Assembly (NCBI GenBank): GCA_003134855.1
Contig: PLCS01000010.1
Location: 124,001 to 188,000, forward strand
Reading direction: 5' to 3'
Origin: Acidobacteriaceae bacterium
GTDB lineage: Bacteria > Acidobacteriota > Terriglobia > Terriglobales > Acidobacteriaceae
DNA length: 64,000 nucleotides
Part shown: positions 5,675 to 60,747 of the stretch, one piece after another
Layout of the letters: each line of letters begins with the position of its first letter
Position numbering within the stretch: position 1 is the stretch's first letter
Notes under the pieces: generated by a model
The model's input: the letters and a program-made list of their open reading frames with translations, nothing else
Databases searched by the model: none
What the model was told of the DNA's origin: nothing
Made by a program: the position numbers and the translations under genes

Positions 5675-5726
5675 GCTGCCGCACCGCAGGTGCCGCGCAG
5701 CGCGGCTGCCCCACCGCAGGTGGCGC
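5675..5726 (+). repeat. Palindromic repeat family C, two tandem copies
   Basis: cgcagcgcggctgccgcaccgcaggtg + cgcagcgcggctgccccaccgcaggtgg. Confidence 0.8.
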
Positions 5727-8840: not shown

Positions 8841-8865
8841 AGCGTGAAAGAAACCCTTTGCGAGC

Positions 8866-8895
8866 GCTCAGCGAGCGTCTGCCCCACCGCAGGTG
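8866..8895 (+). repeat. Palindromic repeat family C copy
   Basis: cagcgagcgtctgccccaccgcaggtgg between yggS and trxB. Confidence 0.75.
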
Positions 8896-8896
8896 G

Positions 8897-9844
8897 TTAT
8901 TGCCCCTGCTCATCGAGAAACTTCTCCGCTTCCAGCGCGGCCATGCAGCCGGAACCGGCGGCGGTGATAGCCTGGCGATAGCGGCGGTCCTGCACGTCGC
9001 CGCAGGCAAAGACGCCCGCCAGCGGCACGCCGTCTTTTGTGACCAGGACGTTGCCGCTGGTGCGGATATAGCCGTCGCCGTCAAGATCGATCTGGCCGGC
9101 GAAGACCTTCGTATTGGGTTCATGGCCGATGCCGAGAAAGAGGCCGCTGATGTCGAGCTTCGTGACCTCGCCGGTGGCCACATCGCGCAGGCGCAGGCCG
9201 CAGACTTCCTTCTCTTCGACGCCCAGCACCTCTTCGATAATGGTGTTGGGGCGGAGAAAGATCTGCGGATGAGCCTGCACGCGGTCGAGCATGATCTTCG
9301 AGGCGCGGAAGCCTTCGCGGCGATGGAGCAGCGTGACCTTGGAGGCAAAGCGGGTGAGGAAGAGCGCCTCTTCCATCGCCGAGTCGCCGCCGCCCACCAC
9401 GGCAATCTCTTTGCCCCGGAAGAAGAAGCCGTCGCAGGTGGCGCAACTGGAGACGCCGTGGCCGATCAGCGCCTGCTCGCTGGGCAGCCCCAGCCAGCGC
9501 GCGCTGGCCCCCGAGGCGACGATCAGCGTGCGCGTCAGAATCTCGCCGGCCGAGGTTTGCAGCCGGAAGGGATTCTCCTTGAGATCCACCGCAGCCAGAG
9601 GCGCAAGCTGGAAGGTCGCGCCGAAGCGGGCGGCCTGCTTCTTCATGTTGTCAATAAGTTCCGGCCCTTGGATGCCCTCCGGCCAGCCGGGAAAGTTTTC
9701 CACCAGTGTGGTCATCGAAAGCTGTCCGCCGGGCTCGTGGCCCTCCAGAACGAGCGGATTGAGGCCGGCGCGTGCGGTATAGATGGCGGCGGTGAGTCCG
9801 GCGCAGCCGGAGCCGAGAATAACGGTGGAGCGAATCTCTGTCAT
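8897..9844 (-). CDS. trxB: Thioredoxin reductase
   Basis: GSGCAGLTAAIYTARAGL, SSCATCDGFFFRGKEIAVVGGGDSAMEEA. Confidence 0.95.
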   Translation of the reverse strand: MTEIRSTVILGSGCAGLTAAIYTARAGLNPLVLEGHEPGGQLSMTTLVENFPGWPEGIQGPELIDNMKKQAARFGATFQLAPLAAVDLKENPFRLQTSAGEILTRTLIVASGASARWLGLPSEQALIGHGVSSCATCDGFFFRGKEIAVVGGGDSAMEEALFLTRFASKVTLLHRREGFRASKIMLDRVQAHPQIFLRPNTIIEEVLGVEEKEVCGLRLRDVATGEVTKLDISGLFLGIGHEPNTKVFAGQIDLDGDGYIRTSGNVLVTKDGVPLAGVFACGDVQDRRYRQAITAAGSGCMAALEAEKFLDEQGQ

Positions 9845-18260: not shown

Positions 18261-18992
18261 ATGCCAGAATCGACGCTTCTCATCGGCATCGACACCTGCG
18301 GCCCCTCGGGTTCGGTGGCGCTAGGGCGCTGGGACGGCCAGGCCGTTGAGATTCTTGGACAAATTGAGCTGGAAGGGCGCAGCTACTCCTCTACTTTGGT
18401 TGCGGCTGTCGGCGAGTTGCTCGGACGAACCAGTATGCAACTTGGTCTGCTCGATGCAATCGTGGCCGTCAACGGTCCCGGCAGCTTCACCGGCGTGCGC
18501 GTGGGCTTGAGCGCCGTGAAGGGTCTCGCCGAGGCGGCGCGGATTCCGGTAATCGCCGTTTCGCGGCTGGAGGTGCTGGCGGCGAAGGTCGGGGCCCCCA
18601 GCGGCAGGTCTTCGTCGCTGGGGTGGCAAGCTGGCGTGGAATCGGCGGCTCTCGATGCGCATCGCCACGAGGTCTACTTGCGGCTGGGTGTGCGTGGTGA
18701 GCAGGGAAGGGAACTGCTGGCCGGTGCGCATGAGCTTGCGGCCATTGAAGCTATGCCCCCCCGGATCGCCATCTGCGACGAGGCGGCCGCCCTGCTGCTG
18801 GCTTCGGCTTGGCCGCAGGCAGAACTGATCCGCACCGCCGCGCCCACCGCCGCCGACGCGCTTCAGCTCTGCGCGCCGCGCGTCGCCGCCGGCGTGTTCG
18901 TCGATCTCGCGCTGCTGGACGGCCATTACCTGCGCCGCTCGGATGCGGAGATATTTGGCGAGCCGGCTGCGGCGGAGCCGCAACGCCCATGA
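18261..18992 (+). CDS. tsaB: tRNA threonylcarbamoyladenosine biosynthesis protein TsaB
   Basis: IDTCGPSGSVALG, VAVNGPGSFTGVRVGLSAVKGLAEA, AALDAHRHEVYL; carries a 12-codon family B repeat. Confidence 0.92.
   Translation: MPESTLLIGIDTCGPSGSVALGRWDGQAVEILGQIELEGRSYSSTLVAAVGELLGRTSMQLGLLDAIVAVNGPGSFTGVRVGLSAVKGLAEAARIPVIAVSRLEVLAAKVGAPSGRSSSLGWQAGVESAALDAHRHEVYLRLGVRGEQGRELLAGAHELAAIEAMPPRIAICDEAAALLLASAWPQAELIRTAAPTAADALQLCAPRVAAGVFVDLALLDGHYLRRSDAEIFGEPAAAEPQRP
18591..18626 (+). repeat. 36-bp palindromic repeat family B, in-frame within tsaB
   Basis: ggggcccccagcggcaggtcttcgtcgctggggtgg = GAPSGRSSSLGW. Confidence 0.88.
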
Positions 18993-37610: not shown

Positions 37611-37660
37611 TATCCCACCCTAGCCGCAACAACAAAGACGCGGCGAGGGTGGGGCACCCA
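37611..37660 (-). repeat. Palindromic repeat family E copy
   Basis: tatcccaccctagccgcaacaacaaagacgcggcgagggtggggcaccca. Confidence 0.82.
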
Positions 37661-37702
37661 CTTTCTTGAAACCATTCACATTCTTGTAACGGTGAAAGAG
37701 TT

Positions 37703-39108: not shown

Positions 39109-39141
39109 GGCCACCACCTGCGGTGGGGCAGCCGCGCTTCG
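39109..39141 (-). repeat. Palindromic repeat family C copy
   Basis: ccaccacctgcggtggggcagccgcgcttcgcg. Confidence 0.78.
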
Positions 39142-39214
39142 CGCCGGGAGTTCGTGGATTCCCACTCTTCGTCTGGTGCGCAAAGGATAGGGCATCCATA
39201 TCTGTAAGCCTCAT

Positions 39215-39251
39215 GCGAGCGAAGAGCGAGCGGCTGCCCCACCGCAGGTGG
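39215..39251 (+). repeat. Palindromic repeat family C copy (inverted relative to 39109)
   Basis: cgagcgaagagcgagcggctgccccaccgcaggtggt. Confidence 0.78.
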
Positions 39252-39488
39252 TCAGCAGCCCTTCTTGCAGCGGGCCATGATGGCGGCGTGGAGGCGGTCG
39301 CGCAGGCTGGCGGGCAGCTCGTAGATCTCGTGAGAGCGATAGATTTCGATGGTCTTGCGGGTAGTGTTGAAAATGACCTCGCAATGCGGACAGCGGCCCA
39401 GGTGGGCTTCGAGTTCGGCGCGCGCTTCGGCGGTAACCGTACCGTCAATCATGTCGTCGAGAAGGGCGAGAAACTCTTTGCAGGTCAC
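39252..39488 (-). CDS. Anti-sigma factor, zf-HC2 type
   Basis: MTCKEFLALLDDMIDGTVTAEARAELEAHLGRCPHCEVIF; C-terminal CKKGC. Confidence 0.88.
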   Translation of the reverse strand: MTCKEFLALLDDMIDGTVTAEARAELEAHLGRCPHCEVIFNTTRKTIEIYRSHEIYELPASLRDRLHAAIMARCKKGC

Positions 39489-44950: not shown

Positions 44951-45151
44951 TAGTGGTGTCCGCCACACAGATGGTCGTTTATGTTTTGAAAGGGCACGAC
45001 TTCAGTCGTGCCGTAAACGGCCATAAATGAGCTGGGCTTTAGCCCCTGAGGGAAGACTCTTCTATGAATTCATCCCATTTGCGGTCACGGTAAATGACCC
45101 TATTTGCGGCGGACACCACTAGTGGTATCCGCCATACAGATGGTCGTTTAT
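44951..45151. repeat. Direct-repeat and inverted-repeat cluster, possible IS-end remnant, containing a family A copy (44984-45053)
   Basis: 32-bp near-identical repeats tagtggtRtccgccaYacagatggtcgtttat at 44951 and 45120; inverted ggtgtccgcc/ggcggacacc at 44954 and 45108. Confidence 0.65.
44984..45053 (+). repeat. Palindromic repeat family A copy
   Basis: ttttgaaagggcacgacttcagtcgtgccgtaaacggcc...gggctttagcccctgaggga. Confidence 0.88.
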
Positions 45152-47826: not shown

Positions 47827-47862
47827 GGGGTCCCCACGGACAGGTCTTCGTCCACGGGGTGG
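47827..47862 (+). repeat. 36-bp palindromic repeat family B (inserted in a family D-like repeat)
   Basis: ggggtccccacggacaggtcttcgtccacggggtgg. Confidence 0.88.
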
Positions 47863-47900
47863 AGGTCCGGATTTTCGGACCTGGGAGACCAGGAACCCAA
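47863..47900 (+). repeat. Palindromic repeat family D copy (3' part)
   Basis: aggtccggattttcggacctgggagaccaggaaccc. Confidence 0.75.
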
Positions 47901-47910
47901 ACTCACCGCT

Positions 47911-48034
47911 TTGTATCAAGGCACGACTTCGCCGGGGTCCCCATCGACAGGTCTTCGTCGATGGGGTGGGAGTTCAGTCGTGCCGAAAAGGCAGCCGAAG
48001 ATTGCCTGAGCTTTAGCACCTGAGGGAATGTTGG
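47911..48034 (+). repeat. Palindromic repeat family A copy interrupted by a family B element
   Basis: aaggcacgacttc-[gcc B gag]-ttcagtcgtgccgaaaaggc...gagctttagcacctgagggaatgttgg. Confidence 0.85.
47934..47969 (+). repeat. 36-bp palindromic repeat family B, nested in family A
   Basis: ggggtccccatcgacaggtcttcgtcgatggggtgg; perfect 10-bp stem. Confidence 0.9.
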
Positions 48035-49102: not shown

Positions 49103-49235
49103 GCAAGCAGGGTAGTTGCGCGAAATTTCTTTTTCAGCTTGCATTGGACAATAGCCGCTCCGTGACAGGCCCGCCTCCAGCGCGATACTCTCAATGGGTA
49201 CGCGTTCGCAGCGTCGAAGGAGTATTTTAACCCTC

Positions 49236-50219
49236 ATGCCTATCCAAGCCACATCGAAAATCTGGCACAACGGCAATCTGATTCCCTGGGAGCAGGCCAA
49301 CATCCACGTGATGAGCCATGTGATCCACTACGGCTCCAGCGTTTTTGAAGGCATCCGCGCCTATGGCCAGCCGCACGGCTCGGCTGTCTTCCGTCTCCCG
49401 GAGCACATGCAGCGGCTGCTGGACTCGGCCAAAATCTACCGCATGGAGCTGCCCTTCGACATCGAGGAGCTGTGCGCCGGCGTGGTCGAGCTGATTGAAG
49501 CCAACGGCGTTGCTCCCTGCTATATCCGCCCCATCGCGCTGCGCGGCTACGGCGAGATCGGCGTCAGCCCCAAGGGTTCGCCGGTCGAGGTCTACATCGC
49601 CAACTTCCCCTGGGGCAAGTACATCGCCGGCCATGGCGGCGCGGACGTCTGCGTCTCCAGTTGGAATCGCCTGGCGCCTAACACCATGCCGTCGCTGGCC
49701 AAGGCCGGCGCCAACTACATGAACTCCCAGCTCATCCACATGGAGGCTGAGATCAACGGCTACGCCGAGGGCATCGGGCTGGACGTGAACGGCCTGGTCA
49801 GCGAGGGCTCCGGCGAGAACATCTTCGTCGTCCGCAACGGCGTGATCTATACGCCGCCGCTCTCCAACTCGGCGCTCTCCGGCATCACCCGCGACTCGGT
49901 GCTGACCATCTCCCGGCACCTCGGGCTGACAGTGAAGGAGCGCTCCCTTCCTCGCGAACTGCTTTACATCGCCGACGAGGTATTCTTCACCGGCACGGCC
50001 GCCGAGGTCCAGCCCATCCGCTCCATCGACCGCATCCTCATCGGCGACGGCAAGTCCGGGGTCCCCTGCGACGAGTCTTCGTTGCAGGGGTGGAAGCCGG
50101 GCGAGATCACCAAGAAGATCGCCGACGAATTCTTCGGCATCGCCAACGGCCTCAAGCCCGACCGCTTCGGCTGGCTGACGCCGGTCAAGGTGAACGCCAC
50201 GGAGCCAGTCGGCGCATAG
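49236..50219 (+). CDS. ilvE: Branched-chain amino acid aminotransferase
   Basis: KIWHNGNLIPWEQANIHVMSHVIHYGSSVFEGIRAY, EGSGENIFVVRNG, FFTGTAAEVQPI; carries a 12-codon family B repeat. Confidence 0.96.
   Translation: MPIQATSKIWHNGNLIPWEQANIHVMSHVIHYGSSVFEGIRAYGQPHGSAVFRLPEHMQRLLDSAKIYRMELPFDIEELCAGVVELIEANGVAPCYIRPIALRGYGEIGVSPKGSPVEVYIANFPWGKYIAGHGGADVCVSSWNRLAPNTMPSLAKAGANYMNSQLIHMEAEINGYAEGIGLDVNGLVSEGSGENIFVVRNGVIYTPPLSNSALSGITRDSVLTISRHLGLTVKERSLPRELLYIADEVFFTGTAAEVQPIRSIDRILIGDGKSGVPCDESSLQGWKPGEITKKIADEFFGIANGLKPDRFGWLTPVKVNATEPVGA
50058..50093 (+). repeat. 36-bp palindromic repeat family B, in-frame within ilvE
   Basis: ggggtcccctgcgacgagtcttcgttgcaggggtgg = GVPCDESSLQGW. Confidence 0.88.
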
Positions 50220-50761: not shown

Positions 50762-53569
50762 TTAGTCCACCGTAACTGTGGTGAAGGTCACGTAGCTTCC
50801 CAGCACATTACCGTCAGAGAATGAAACTACGAACTGATTGTAGCCCCAGAAAAGTGAAAAGGTGTCGCTGCAGGTGAATCCGGGGTCTGGAACCTGTGGG
50901 GGATAAGTAACGGTCACTTTCACCGTTCCCGGCCCGTTTCCGGAAGCCGGGCTCAAGCTGCCGTTGGGAGGGGGGGGATAAGGAAAGTTCTGAAGGGATG
51001 CCGTCCATGTGACTCCGGTTGCGGGCTGGACGGAGAAAGTGGCCGTCCCACTGCCTCCGGCGCAGCCGCCAATAACTGGCGGGTTGAGTGCGAGGGTTGC
51101 TGGAGTAATCGAGTCAACTCCCGACGAAACCACACTGCCATTCCCGGAAAGGCTGATCACTATGGGGGATGCCGGGAAGTTACCGGTAATGCCAAGCGCC
51201 GCATACTCACTCTGAGCCACCGAGGGAGTGAAGAGATCCGTGATGGTGCATGTGCCGCCGACTGGGAGTGTCATCCCGGAACAACCGTCGCTGACCAGAG
51301 TGAAGTCCGGAGACTGAGCGGGGTTCGGCCCACCGACCACCGCACCGGAGATGGTTACAGGAGCGGTACCGCTGCTGGTCACCGTCACCGATTGGGATGA
51401 GCTGGCAACCCCAAGCGCCTCGGTTCCAAAATTCTGAGAAAGGACTGAAACGCACACCGCGGCCTGAGGGTTCGGAGGAGTGCCTTGGGGAAGGTTTTGT
51501 AGGTCTCTTTGCAGATCACTTACCCCCACAGCGAATGTGGTAATGTCGCCCGCCAGGCCGAGGCTGAGGTTGCCGATTATTGTAGTGAGGAGTTCGACGT
51601 TATCCTTTCCCGTGGGGGCAGGGTTCTGAATATAGCTGGAAGCCACAACCAAGGTGTGAATTCCCTCGTAAATCTCAGCAGCTACAACCAAGGGCGAAGC
51701 CACAACAACAGCACCTGTTTTGGTAACAATCAAAATCGCAGACGGTGCTAACTTCAAGGTGTTGATAATCAGGTCGTATGCGGCGGGAGAGGTACTGATC
51801 GTCTGATTGAAGTACAGAAGGTTAGATGCGACACCCGAGGCAGTTGCTCCCCCGCTATTGGCCACCTCAAAATTGGATTCGAGCACAGCCTGAGCAGAGA
51901 GGCAACCCGTGCCCGTCGCGGCCTGGGCGGTTATAGCGGCTCTTCCAGAAACGAGATTCCTTAAGCCCGCGGGCACCGCGCTCGCGCCAACCCCAGCCGA
52001 GTTGGTCAAAGACTGCAGAAGAGCCAAAGACACTTGGTCGATCTGGCCAAGTTCGGTTGGTCCTATTATCACGGGCTGTCCATTTGTTGTCCCGAGATTT
52101 GCTGACGACGCCGTACCGTCGACGACGGCTTGTATCTGGGGAATGATTGCATTCAATGTGCCGATAAGGGCGGTGAGGTCGGAAGATACAGGGCCCGAGG
52201 TGATTTCGGAGCTGAGCTGATTGGCGACGGCAAGTTCGCCCTCCAACAGGCCTAATGTAACGGTTCCTGGAACACTTGGAGGCGCTACAGGCACGGCGGC
52301 GATTTGGAGTTGTACACTGCTGGACTGAGCGGAAGACTGGACCACTACGACATTGACCGCACCACTGAAAAAAGTAGTACCGCTTCTGATCACGGGAACA
52401 GGCACGATAAGAGACGTCGGGCTGACAAATATTGGCTGAATGTCAACAGAGAATCCGCCAGATGAGGAAGAGAAGTTGACCGTTGCGGTGGAATCGAATC
52501 CGGAGCCGGTGATGGTGAGTGAATCGAATGGGTTGCCCGTGGTCTCGCTGAGCGAGCTGATTTGAACTGTCGACGGCGCGGATGTAATGGTTACCGTCGC
52601 CGACCCGGACTTTGTTGTGTCCTCGGTGCTGGTGGCCGTGACGGTGACGGGGTTGGTGGCAGGGACAGCGCTGGGCGCGGTGTAGAGGCCGGCCGTCGAA
52701 ATGGTACCGACAGTGGAGTTGCCGCCTTGAACGCCGCTCACGCTCCAGGCGACCGTCGAGCTGTAGGCTCCGGTTCCTGTGACAGTGGCTGCGCATTGTG
52801 AAGTTTGCCCTGTCTGCACTGACGCGGGAGTGCAGGAGGCCGCAACCGAAGTGATCGTCGGCGGGTTGGTGGCAGCAGACAGAGTAATGGATGCAGAACC
52901 GGACTTTGTTGCGTCCTCGGTGCTTGTGGCTGTGACGGTGACGGGGTTCGTGCTGGGGACAGCGCTGGGTGCAGTGTAGAGGCCCGCCGCCGAGATGGTT
53001 CCGACAGTGGAGTTGCCGCCTTGAACGCCGCTCACGCTCCAGGCGACCGTCGAGCTATAGGCTCCGGTTCCTGTGACGGCGGCTGTACATTGTGATGTTT
53101 GGCCGGTTTGGACCGAGGCCGGAACGCATGACGCCGCAACGGAAGTGATGGTTGGCGGAGCAGCGGGCGGATTCAGCGTGATGGCGGCCGAGGCGGACTT
53201 CGTTGTGTCGGTCACGCTGGTCGCCGTCAAGGTCACGGTGGTGGTCGCGCTGACCGTGGCTGGCGCAGTATAAGTAACGCCTGTCACGGTGGAAGCGCTG
53301 AGTGCGCCTGCGCCGGAGCCGATGCTCCAGGTGACACCTGCATTGGAAGAGTCGTTAGAAACAGCCGCAGTGAAGGACTGCACCCCGTTGCCGCTGAGCG
53401 ATGCGGTGGTGGGGCTCACGCTGACACTGATGGAAGGTGGTGGGTTTGAATTCGATCCACTGTTGTTTCCTCCACAGCCGGAGAGGAAAACGAGCGCCGC
53501 AAAGCCAGAGAAACTGATCCTGAGTAGGATTGCCGAACCGGCGAAGTTTTTGCGAACGAACGTCTTCAT
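50762..53569 (-). CDS. Secreted lipoprotein with multiple bacterial Ig-like domains
   Basis: Lipobox LVFLSGCGGNNSG; two near-identical tandem units PPTITSVAASC.PASVQTGQTSQC...; HYDIN/choice-of-anchor-like FGTEALGVASSSQSVTVTSSGTAPVTIS. Confidence 0.85.
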   Translation of the reverse strand: MKTFVRKNFAGSAILLRISFSGFAALVFLSGCGGNNSGSNSNPPPSISVSVSPTTASLSGNGVQSFTAAVSNDSSNAGVTWSIGSGAGALSASTVTGVTYTAPATVSATTTVTLTATSVTDTTKSASAAITLNPPAAPPTITSVAASCVPASVQTGQTSQCTAAVTGTGAYSSTVAWSVSGVQGGNSTVGTISAAGLYTAPSAVPSTNPVTVTATSTEDATKSGSASITLSAATNPPTITSVAASCTPASVQTGQTSQCAATVTGTGAYSSTVAWSVSGVQGGNSTVGTISTAGLYTAPSAVPATNPVTVTATSTEDTTKSGSATVTITSAPSTVQISSLSETTGNPFDSLTITGSGFDSTATVNFSSSSGGFSVDIQPIFVSPTSLIVPVPVIRSGTTFFSGAVNVVVVQSSAQSSSVQLQIAAVPVAPPSVPGTVTLGLLEGELAVANQLSSEITSGPVSSDLTALIGTLNAIIPQIQAVVDGTASSANLGTTNGQPVIIGPTELGQIDQVSLALLQSLTNSAGVGASAVPAGLRNLVSGRAAITAQAATGTGCLSAQAVLESNFEVANSGGATASGVASNLLYFNQTISTSPAAYDLIINTLKLAPSAILIVTKTGAVVVASPLVVAAEIYEGIHTLVVASSYIQNPAPTGKDNVELLTTIIGNLSLGLAGDITTFAVGVSDLQRDLQNLPQGTPPNPQAAVCVSVLSQNFGTEALGVASSSQSVTVTSSGTAPVTISGAVVGGPNPAQSPDFTLVSDGCSGMTLPVGGTCTITDLFTPSVAQSEYAALGITGNFPASPIVISLSGNGSVVSSGVDSITPATLALNPPVIGGCAGGSGTATFSVQPATGVTWTASLQNFPYPPPPNGSLSPASGNGPGTVKVTVTYPPQVPDPGFTCSDTFSLFWGYNQFVVSFSDGNVLGSYVTFTTVTVD

Positions 53570-60680: not shown

Positions 60681-60696
60681 GCGACAATCCCATCTG

Positions 60697-60747
60697 TGGG
60701 TGCCCCACCTTCGGCGCGTCTTTGTTTTTGCGCCTAAGGTGGGATAT
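60697..60747 (+). repeat. Palindromic repeat family E copy
   Basis: tgggtgccccaccttcggcgcgtctttgtttttgcgcctaaggtgggatat. Confidence 0.8.

Follow-up and report, generated by a model that had tools for sequence, protein, structure and literature searches.

A probable 38-nt mobile palindrome within genes, an RNA gene and other hairpins of an Acidobacteriaceae genome

Introduction

The Rickettsia palindromic elements (RPEs) are palindromic, lie in frame in unrelated housekeeping genes and have no known transposase of their own (PMC10969869). They measure about 150 bp (PMC10969869), and RPE-4 and RPE-6, which are CGTC REPs, belong to the short CGTC repeats (PMC3733652). In REP/RAYT systems and TIRtrons, hairpins of 20-40 nt are present in many copies, some of them intragenic (PMC2817692; PMC3733652), and tyrosine transposases flanked by TIRs have been reported for Acidobacteria (PMC3733652). 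Enzymes of the IS200/IS605 type make no larger target duplications (PMC2817692). REP dimers within larger palindromes have been described in A. variabilis, T. roseum and H. neapolitanus; for A. variabilis and H. neapolitanus, target palindromes without the insert were not found (PMC3733652). Finally, MITEs are short and non-autonomous, are bordered by flank duplications and occasionally produce an in-frame gene fusion (PMC10969869).

The repeat considered here, B, from the 3.94-Mb genome of an Acidobacteriaceae bacterium, shares features with each of these systems. It appears to behave like the RPEs, being palindromic, in frame in unrelated housekeeping genes and without a known transposase of its own; this is a likeness of behaviour only, and kinship is not claimed. 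B differs from RPEs in its 38-nt length, in stem feet that read GGGGT and TGG instead of a CGTC tag, in its flank duplications and in its Acidobacteriaceae host. With REPs and TIRtrons it shares the small hairpin, the many copies and the occasional intragenic position, but it never flanks a Y1 transposase gene, its consensus has no unpaired GTAG or CGTC tag at the stem foot, and its sites have flank duplications. Families A, C and D of the same genome can themselves be classed with REPs or TIRtrons, as reported for Acidobacteria (PMC3733652). Like the REP dimers, B can form a palindrome within a palindrome; in contrast to A. variabilis and H. neapolitanus, empty copies of the hairpin families A, C, D and E exist here, and those of A and C are abundant. 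B resembles MITEs in being short, apparently non-autonomous and bordered by duplications, with in-frame insertions in genes; unlike them, it has no known parent transposon and consists of a single 38-nt hairpin, MITEs usually being longer. No description of B was found in the literature on such elements in Acidobacteria, most subscription journals being outside the scope of the search. We infer that B is probably a small non-autonomous mobile palindrome, a unit inserted by an enzyme, whose copies in genes are tolerated in frame.

The composite locus and its repeat families

By the window we mean the whole 64,000-nt stretch of DNA that was analysed, and positions refer to it unless stated otherwise. 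At 47920-47984, B lies inside a family A hairpin, and the arrangement given in a preliminary description, GGCACGACTTC-GCC-GGGGTCCCCATCGACAGGTCTTCGTCGATGGGGTGG-GAG-TTCAGTCGTGCC with TTC on either side, is exact. The element (CC plus a 36-nt core; 47932-47969, plus strand) has a 10-bp stem and an 8-nt loop, with a DNA fold of -11.5 kcal/mol (z -3.9). It is preceded by the left arm of A, GGCACGACTTCG (47920-47931, plus strand), and followed at 47970-47984 (plus strand) by a stretch that includes the right arm TTCAGTCGTGCC (47973-47984). The distal second part of the A unit, TGAGCTTTAGCACCTGAGGGAA, lies at 48007-48028 (plus strand), and in relatives the same two parts together make up the terminal inverted repeats that enclose Y1 transposase genes. 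TTC had been taken for the extent of a duplication; it is indeed on both sides, but only as the core of an imperfect 7-nt repeat, GACTTCG on the left (47925-47931) and GAGTTCA on the right (47970-47976). In the composites L002 and L007, which read GACTTCACC-[36]-GAGTTCA, the flanks are GACTTCA and GAGTTCA, identical in 6/7 letters with TTC as the invariant core; L002 has a second B in tandem.

The A+B composite is found at four genomic places with one junction (C15:171900, which is the window copy, C8:877004, C8:110307 and C14:188743), and its B, altered in C8:110328 and C14, is of the subtype ATCGAC..GTCGAT. The common junction and subtype make it most likely, as far as sequence can tell, that B entered A once and that the nested unit was copied afterwards. 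The locus had been put forward as direct evidence that B moves. Since the composite was itself copied, at least four times and always with a single junction and a single B subtype, the locus is a duplicate of a nesting that already existed, not an independent insertion, and is thus weaker evidence than first thought. Synteny with the sister contig L082 ends at about 48052, right beside the composite, which precludes an orthologous empty-site comparison with this sister here. Beyond the break the upstream gene of L082 looks like a xylulokinase-type kinase, the window having a VWFA gene. Rfam gave no match in L001, which holds the composite.

Genome-wide, a tolerant pattern finds 51 copies of B, with the 38-nt consensus CCGGGGTCCCC-NNNGAC-AGGTCTTC-GTCNNN-GGGGTGG; about 35 of them lie outside A and C. 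Uninterrupted family A (GGCACGACTTCAGTCGTGCC or close variants; fold -8.4 kcal/mol, z -6.5) occurs at about 45 genomic places, four of them in the window (2823, 30407, 35901 and 44993-45012, the last on the plus strand). Reversed-pattern controls (0 for B, 0 and 1 for A) rule out that A and B are chance repeats.

B is found inside the hairpin families A, C, D and E and inside B itself. A second copy in the window (47827-47862, plus strand), 70 nt upstream of the composite, sits in a family D hairpin whose right part is AGGTCCGGATTTTCGGACCTGGG (47863-47885); L061 and L065 are further cases in D. About 10 C+B composites have one common junction, and family C (...GCGGCTAGGGTGGGA) has about 40 genomic copies without an insert at that position. 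The window contains such an empty form at 37611-37661 (minus strand) and a second, C-like copy at 60696-60746 (plus strand). In the relative G027, about 20 copies of B lie in the loop of hairpin E (GTGGCTTTTTCCTC/AAGAAAAAGCCAC), and empty E copies are found in the genome itself (L025, L081) and in G027 (L265, L298). These G027 copies are near-identical and appear as a burst of about 20 composites (L243-L307, GTGGCTTTTT..AAAAAGCCAC). B within B reads ATCGAC-[B']-GACAGG in L006 and L007. A+B, C+B and E+B composites thus recur with fixed junctions, which shows that REP-type repeats that acquire B take it along. The loop position of B in the repeats is clear, but it could reflect survival, as only loop insertions may keep the REP copyable.

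Other repeats were noted. Copies of B are carried within repeated elements (L033 and L040, and also L029, L047, L066 and L070): one B is common to two copies of a repeat, one of which has a DUF772 transposase ORF, and another is common to the copies of a four-copy repeat. A further hairpin family, GCGGCTGCCCCACCGCAGGTGG, occurs in the window at 762-786, 5694-5725, 8859-8910 and 39113-39265, with some pairs inverted, and the minus-strand ORF 50762-53569 has an internal tandem 294-nt repeat that is 83% identical (52599-53186).

Conservation and distribution

In 50 distinct copies from several genera, the B stem has 61 double-change cells versus 22 after shuffling; both sides change in five of ten pairs, and slid structures fail. 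Columns 10-11 and 28-29 were not constrained by the search pattern, and covariation there is therefore not built in. The aligned copies thus show a stem conserved by compensatory changes.

B (at most 3 mismatches) is present in 36/36 relatives of the same genus, in 1 to 102 copies, and at the same threshold in 0/24 genomes of other families; reversed-pattern controls in the surveys of relatives gave 0. Across the class, 22 of 300 sampled genomes have B; nearly all belong to the same family, with two genomes from another family in addition. By these counts B is almost confined to the Acidobacteriaceae, in which the relatives place this lineage near Terracidiphilus and Occallatibacter.

Empty sites and insertions in genes

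About 20 filled B sites are empty in the sister MAG bog_399 (G061) or in other relatives. For 26 further sites, a query made of the joined flanks was used, with matches in G061 and three other genomes, and insert lengths were taken from the alignments; L011, L061, L063 and L068 had no alignable relative and are not part of the comparison. One window case lies in ilvE (49194-50219), where a 42-nt insert at 50055-50096 (plus strand; core 50058-50093) is flanked by AAG repeats. The sister contig L082, in which COX15 is 97% identical, has ilvE without B and with an exact 42-nt gap, and E. coli IlvE (PDB 1i1k) also lacks the insert, leaving a gap of 14 aa. In tsaB (18261-18992), the B core at 18591-18626 (plus strand) encodes GAPSGRSSSLGW, and 42 nt are missing in the sister.

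The same 42-nt length is found in FtsK, Lnt (versus four relatives), RNase R, RnpA, IlvE, DPP-IV and TsaB, as well as in an ABC transporter (versus four relatives), an Ig-like protein and a PadR-like protein (L069, by our own frame reading). The DUF748 insert is 45 nt, two further long ORFs have 42 and 45 nt, and TrpF has 84 nt, equal to two tandem copies, versus five relative loci. All 14 gene insertions compared (Pfam-supported or long aligned frames) are multiples of 3 (42, 45 or 84 nt), so that B meets the RPE criterion of in-frame insertion in conserved ORFs. Pfam recognises FtsK, Lnt, TrpF, RNase R, IlvE, DPP-IV, TsaB, RnpA and the ABC transporter among the targets. The coding count does not include L015, where B lies near an ORF start and differs from the sister by 43 nt, L021 (46-47 nt), where it lies upstream of a conserved phosphorylase domain, or L049 (41 nt), which has no supported gene. 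Elsewhere, inserts of 45 nt (family D), 43 nt (RNase P RNA) and 41 nt (a broken RAYT gene, the IS-like repeat L033 and L049) are also found.

RNase P has B in its RNA as well as in its protein. In the RNA (L067:1569-1604), a peripheral arm holds the 43 inserted nt, and the score against RF00010 is 220.6 bits, versus 231.4 bits in the sister without them; in a relative (L184), this arm contains a different B. The protein gene rnpA (L025:1502, B strand) has a 42-nt in-frame copy.

Two peptides predominate among the copies in genes, GVPSDRSSSLGW from the B strand and HPSDEDLSLGTP from the other. No stop is present in any of six frames in 20/21 distinct copies of the genome, versus 40% of shuffles. 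Frame preservation is read from the survivors, not from the mechanism. The data show that B enters genes, an RNA gene and five hairpin families as a whole unit, in the hairpins at the loop or its edge.

Flanking duplications and the route of insertion

Flank duplications had been suspected from the composite. Comparison of the four letters preceding CC with the four following the core, at 32 own sites that differ in context, gives 63/128 matching positions, versus a permutation expectation of 35.5 (0/5000 permutations), and the excess is thus real, meeting the MITE criterion of target-site duplication, with many duplications imperfect. The duplication is most often 4 nt and in a few cases 7, a 7-letter match being better than 4 at few sites (the A composite, L065 and L021). 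Perfect repeats include AGCACC/AGCACC (L071), AGAGCC/AGAGCC (L072), GAAGCC/GAAGCC (L009) and CAGAAGG/CAGAAGG (L021); in about half of the sites the duplication is imperfect or weak. The same test is only suggestive in G061 (16 sites; 24 versus 17.5, 85/2000) and in G027 (38 sites, mostly E+B composites; 46 versus 38.7, 114/2000), where it is uninformative because most copies are in one composite. Past the duplication, the right flank tends to CCGG (20, 17, 20 and 17 of 32 sites), which equals the left-end letters of B. A preference for foldable DNA in coding targets looked strong at first (percentile 0.27) but is weak once GC content is matched (mean 0.35 at 20 sites).

Together with the roughly 20 empty sites elsewhere, these duplications above chance support the earlier proposal that B moves, or moved, as a discrete unit, a reading for which the composite locus alone would not suffice. 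As for the route, a trans-acting enzyme, which is inferred and of which none was found, would recognise the B hairpin and join it to a short staggered cut, likewise inferred, with exposed hairpin loops and NNNN^CCGG as preferred targets. Within genes, copies would then survive because B is free of stops and a total of 42 or 45 nt keeps the frame, out-of-frame insertions being purged. No mobilising gene for B was found, and the enzyme step is pure inference.

The main rival, which we consider unlikely without being able to set it aside, is template switching during replication by CCGG microhomology: a nascent 3' end ...NNNNCCGG would anneal to the CCGG start of B, copy the hairpin and return a few nt upstream, leaving a duplicated NNNN. 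This would fit a target CCGG equal to the left end of the element, duplications that are short and of variable length, the tandem copies of period 42 (L009, L011, L015 and L055; also G031, G032 and G204) and the copy number at L015, which is 2 in the genome and 1 in G061. It fits less well with unit ends that are constant across five hairpin families and genes, with family A and the D copy L065, which have no CCGG at the target and a complete B nonetheless, and with the right end, where microhomology with the target is not evident. At one of the tandem loci (L055; G000:C3:1439-1516), the two copies lie immediately upstream of a tRNA gene; the sister has no B there and G064 has one differing copy.

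More doubtful still is mobilisation in trans, with B acting as a REP for the Y1 transposases (RAYT/TIRYT) of families A, C and D. A search for Y1 tyrosine transposase genes (PF01797) gave 6 in the genome and others in eight B-rich relatives, and 36 loci were read. The gene is bracketed by A at L228, L234 and L241, the second part of A, GGGCTTTAGCCCCTG, being inverted on the opposite side as in the TIR-flanked tyrosine transposases of Acidobacteria (PMC3733652). It is bracketed by D at L079 and by C at L231; single copies of A-, C- or D-type repeats occur at other Y1 loci. Because A, D and some C flank Y1 genes and the fixed-junction composites recur, REP-type repeats can be seen to co-spread B, and the idea of direct Y1 mobilisation draws on these clearly spread composites with A, C and E, on the REP-sized hairpin of B and on the 1-10 Y1 genes that the same genomes carry. 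B, however, flanks 0/36 Y1 loci in 9 genomes and is rejected as a RAYT-flanking REP; the only B near a Y1 gene lies inside the RAYT reading frame and breaks it. Its sites, moreover, have target duplications, whereas IS200/IS605-type enzymes make no larger ones (PMC2817692). In the broken RAYT gene (L030/L078; G000:C16:31660-32014), the 41-nt B causes a frameshift with a stop right after. No transposase gene lies between neighbouring B copies at the 51-copy coordinates, half-elements being outside the scope.

Two last alternatives hardly deserve credence. That A+B is one repeat type, always found together so that no separate insertion is needed, as the four composites with a common junction and B subtype might suggest and as the preliminary description had allowed, is refuted by the roughly 45 uninterrupted A hairpins, by the presence of B in genes, in RNase P RNA and in the hairpins C, D, E and B, and by the empty sites in the sister and other relatives. 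Equally improbable is an ancestral B in genes that relatives lost precisely, as direct repeats can permit precise excision, since the corresponding position is free of B in several relatives (four each for lnt and the ABC transporter, five loci for trpF) and E. coli IlvE lacks it as well.

Implications

It is possible, though we hold this only tentatively, that B stands for a class of mobile DNA of its own: a 38-nt hairpin without genes whose targets would be the loops of other nucleic-acid hairpins and NNNN^CCGG sites, whose entry would leave a short duplication, and whose route, by an enzyme or by template switching, would differ from those of RAYT, IS and the known MITE families. Essential genes would thereby gain blocks of 14 codons, and a ribozyme would gain helices. 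Rickettsia is the striking case of selfish palindromes in essential proteins; here the host is a soil lineage and the unit is 38 nt. The sister genomes provide a clean before and after at about 20 loci, two of which are both RNase P subunits, and such comparisons make movement, and its tolerance by proteins and ribozymes, testable, while the nesting shows one mobile hairpin riding on others.
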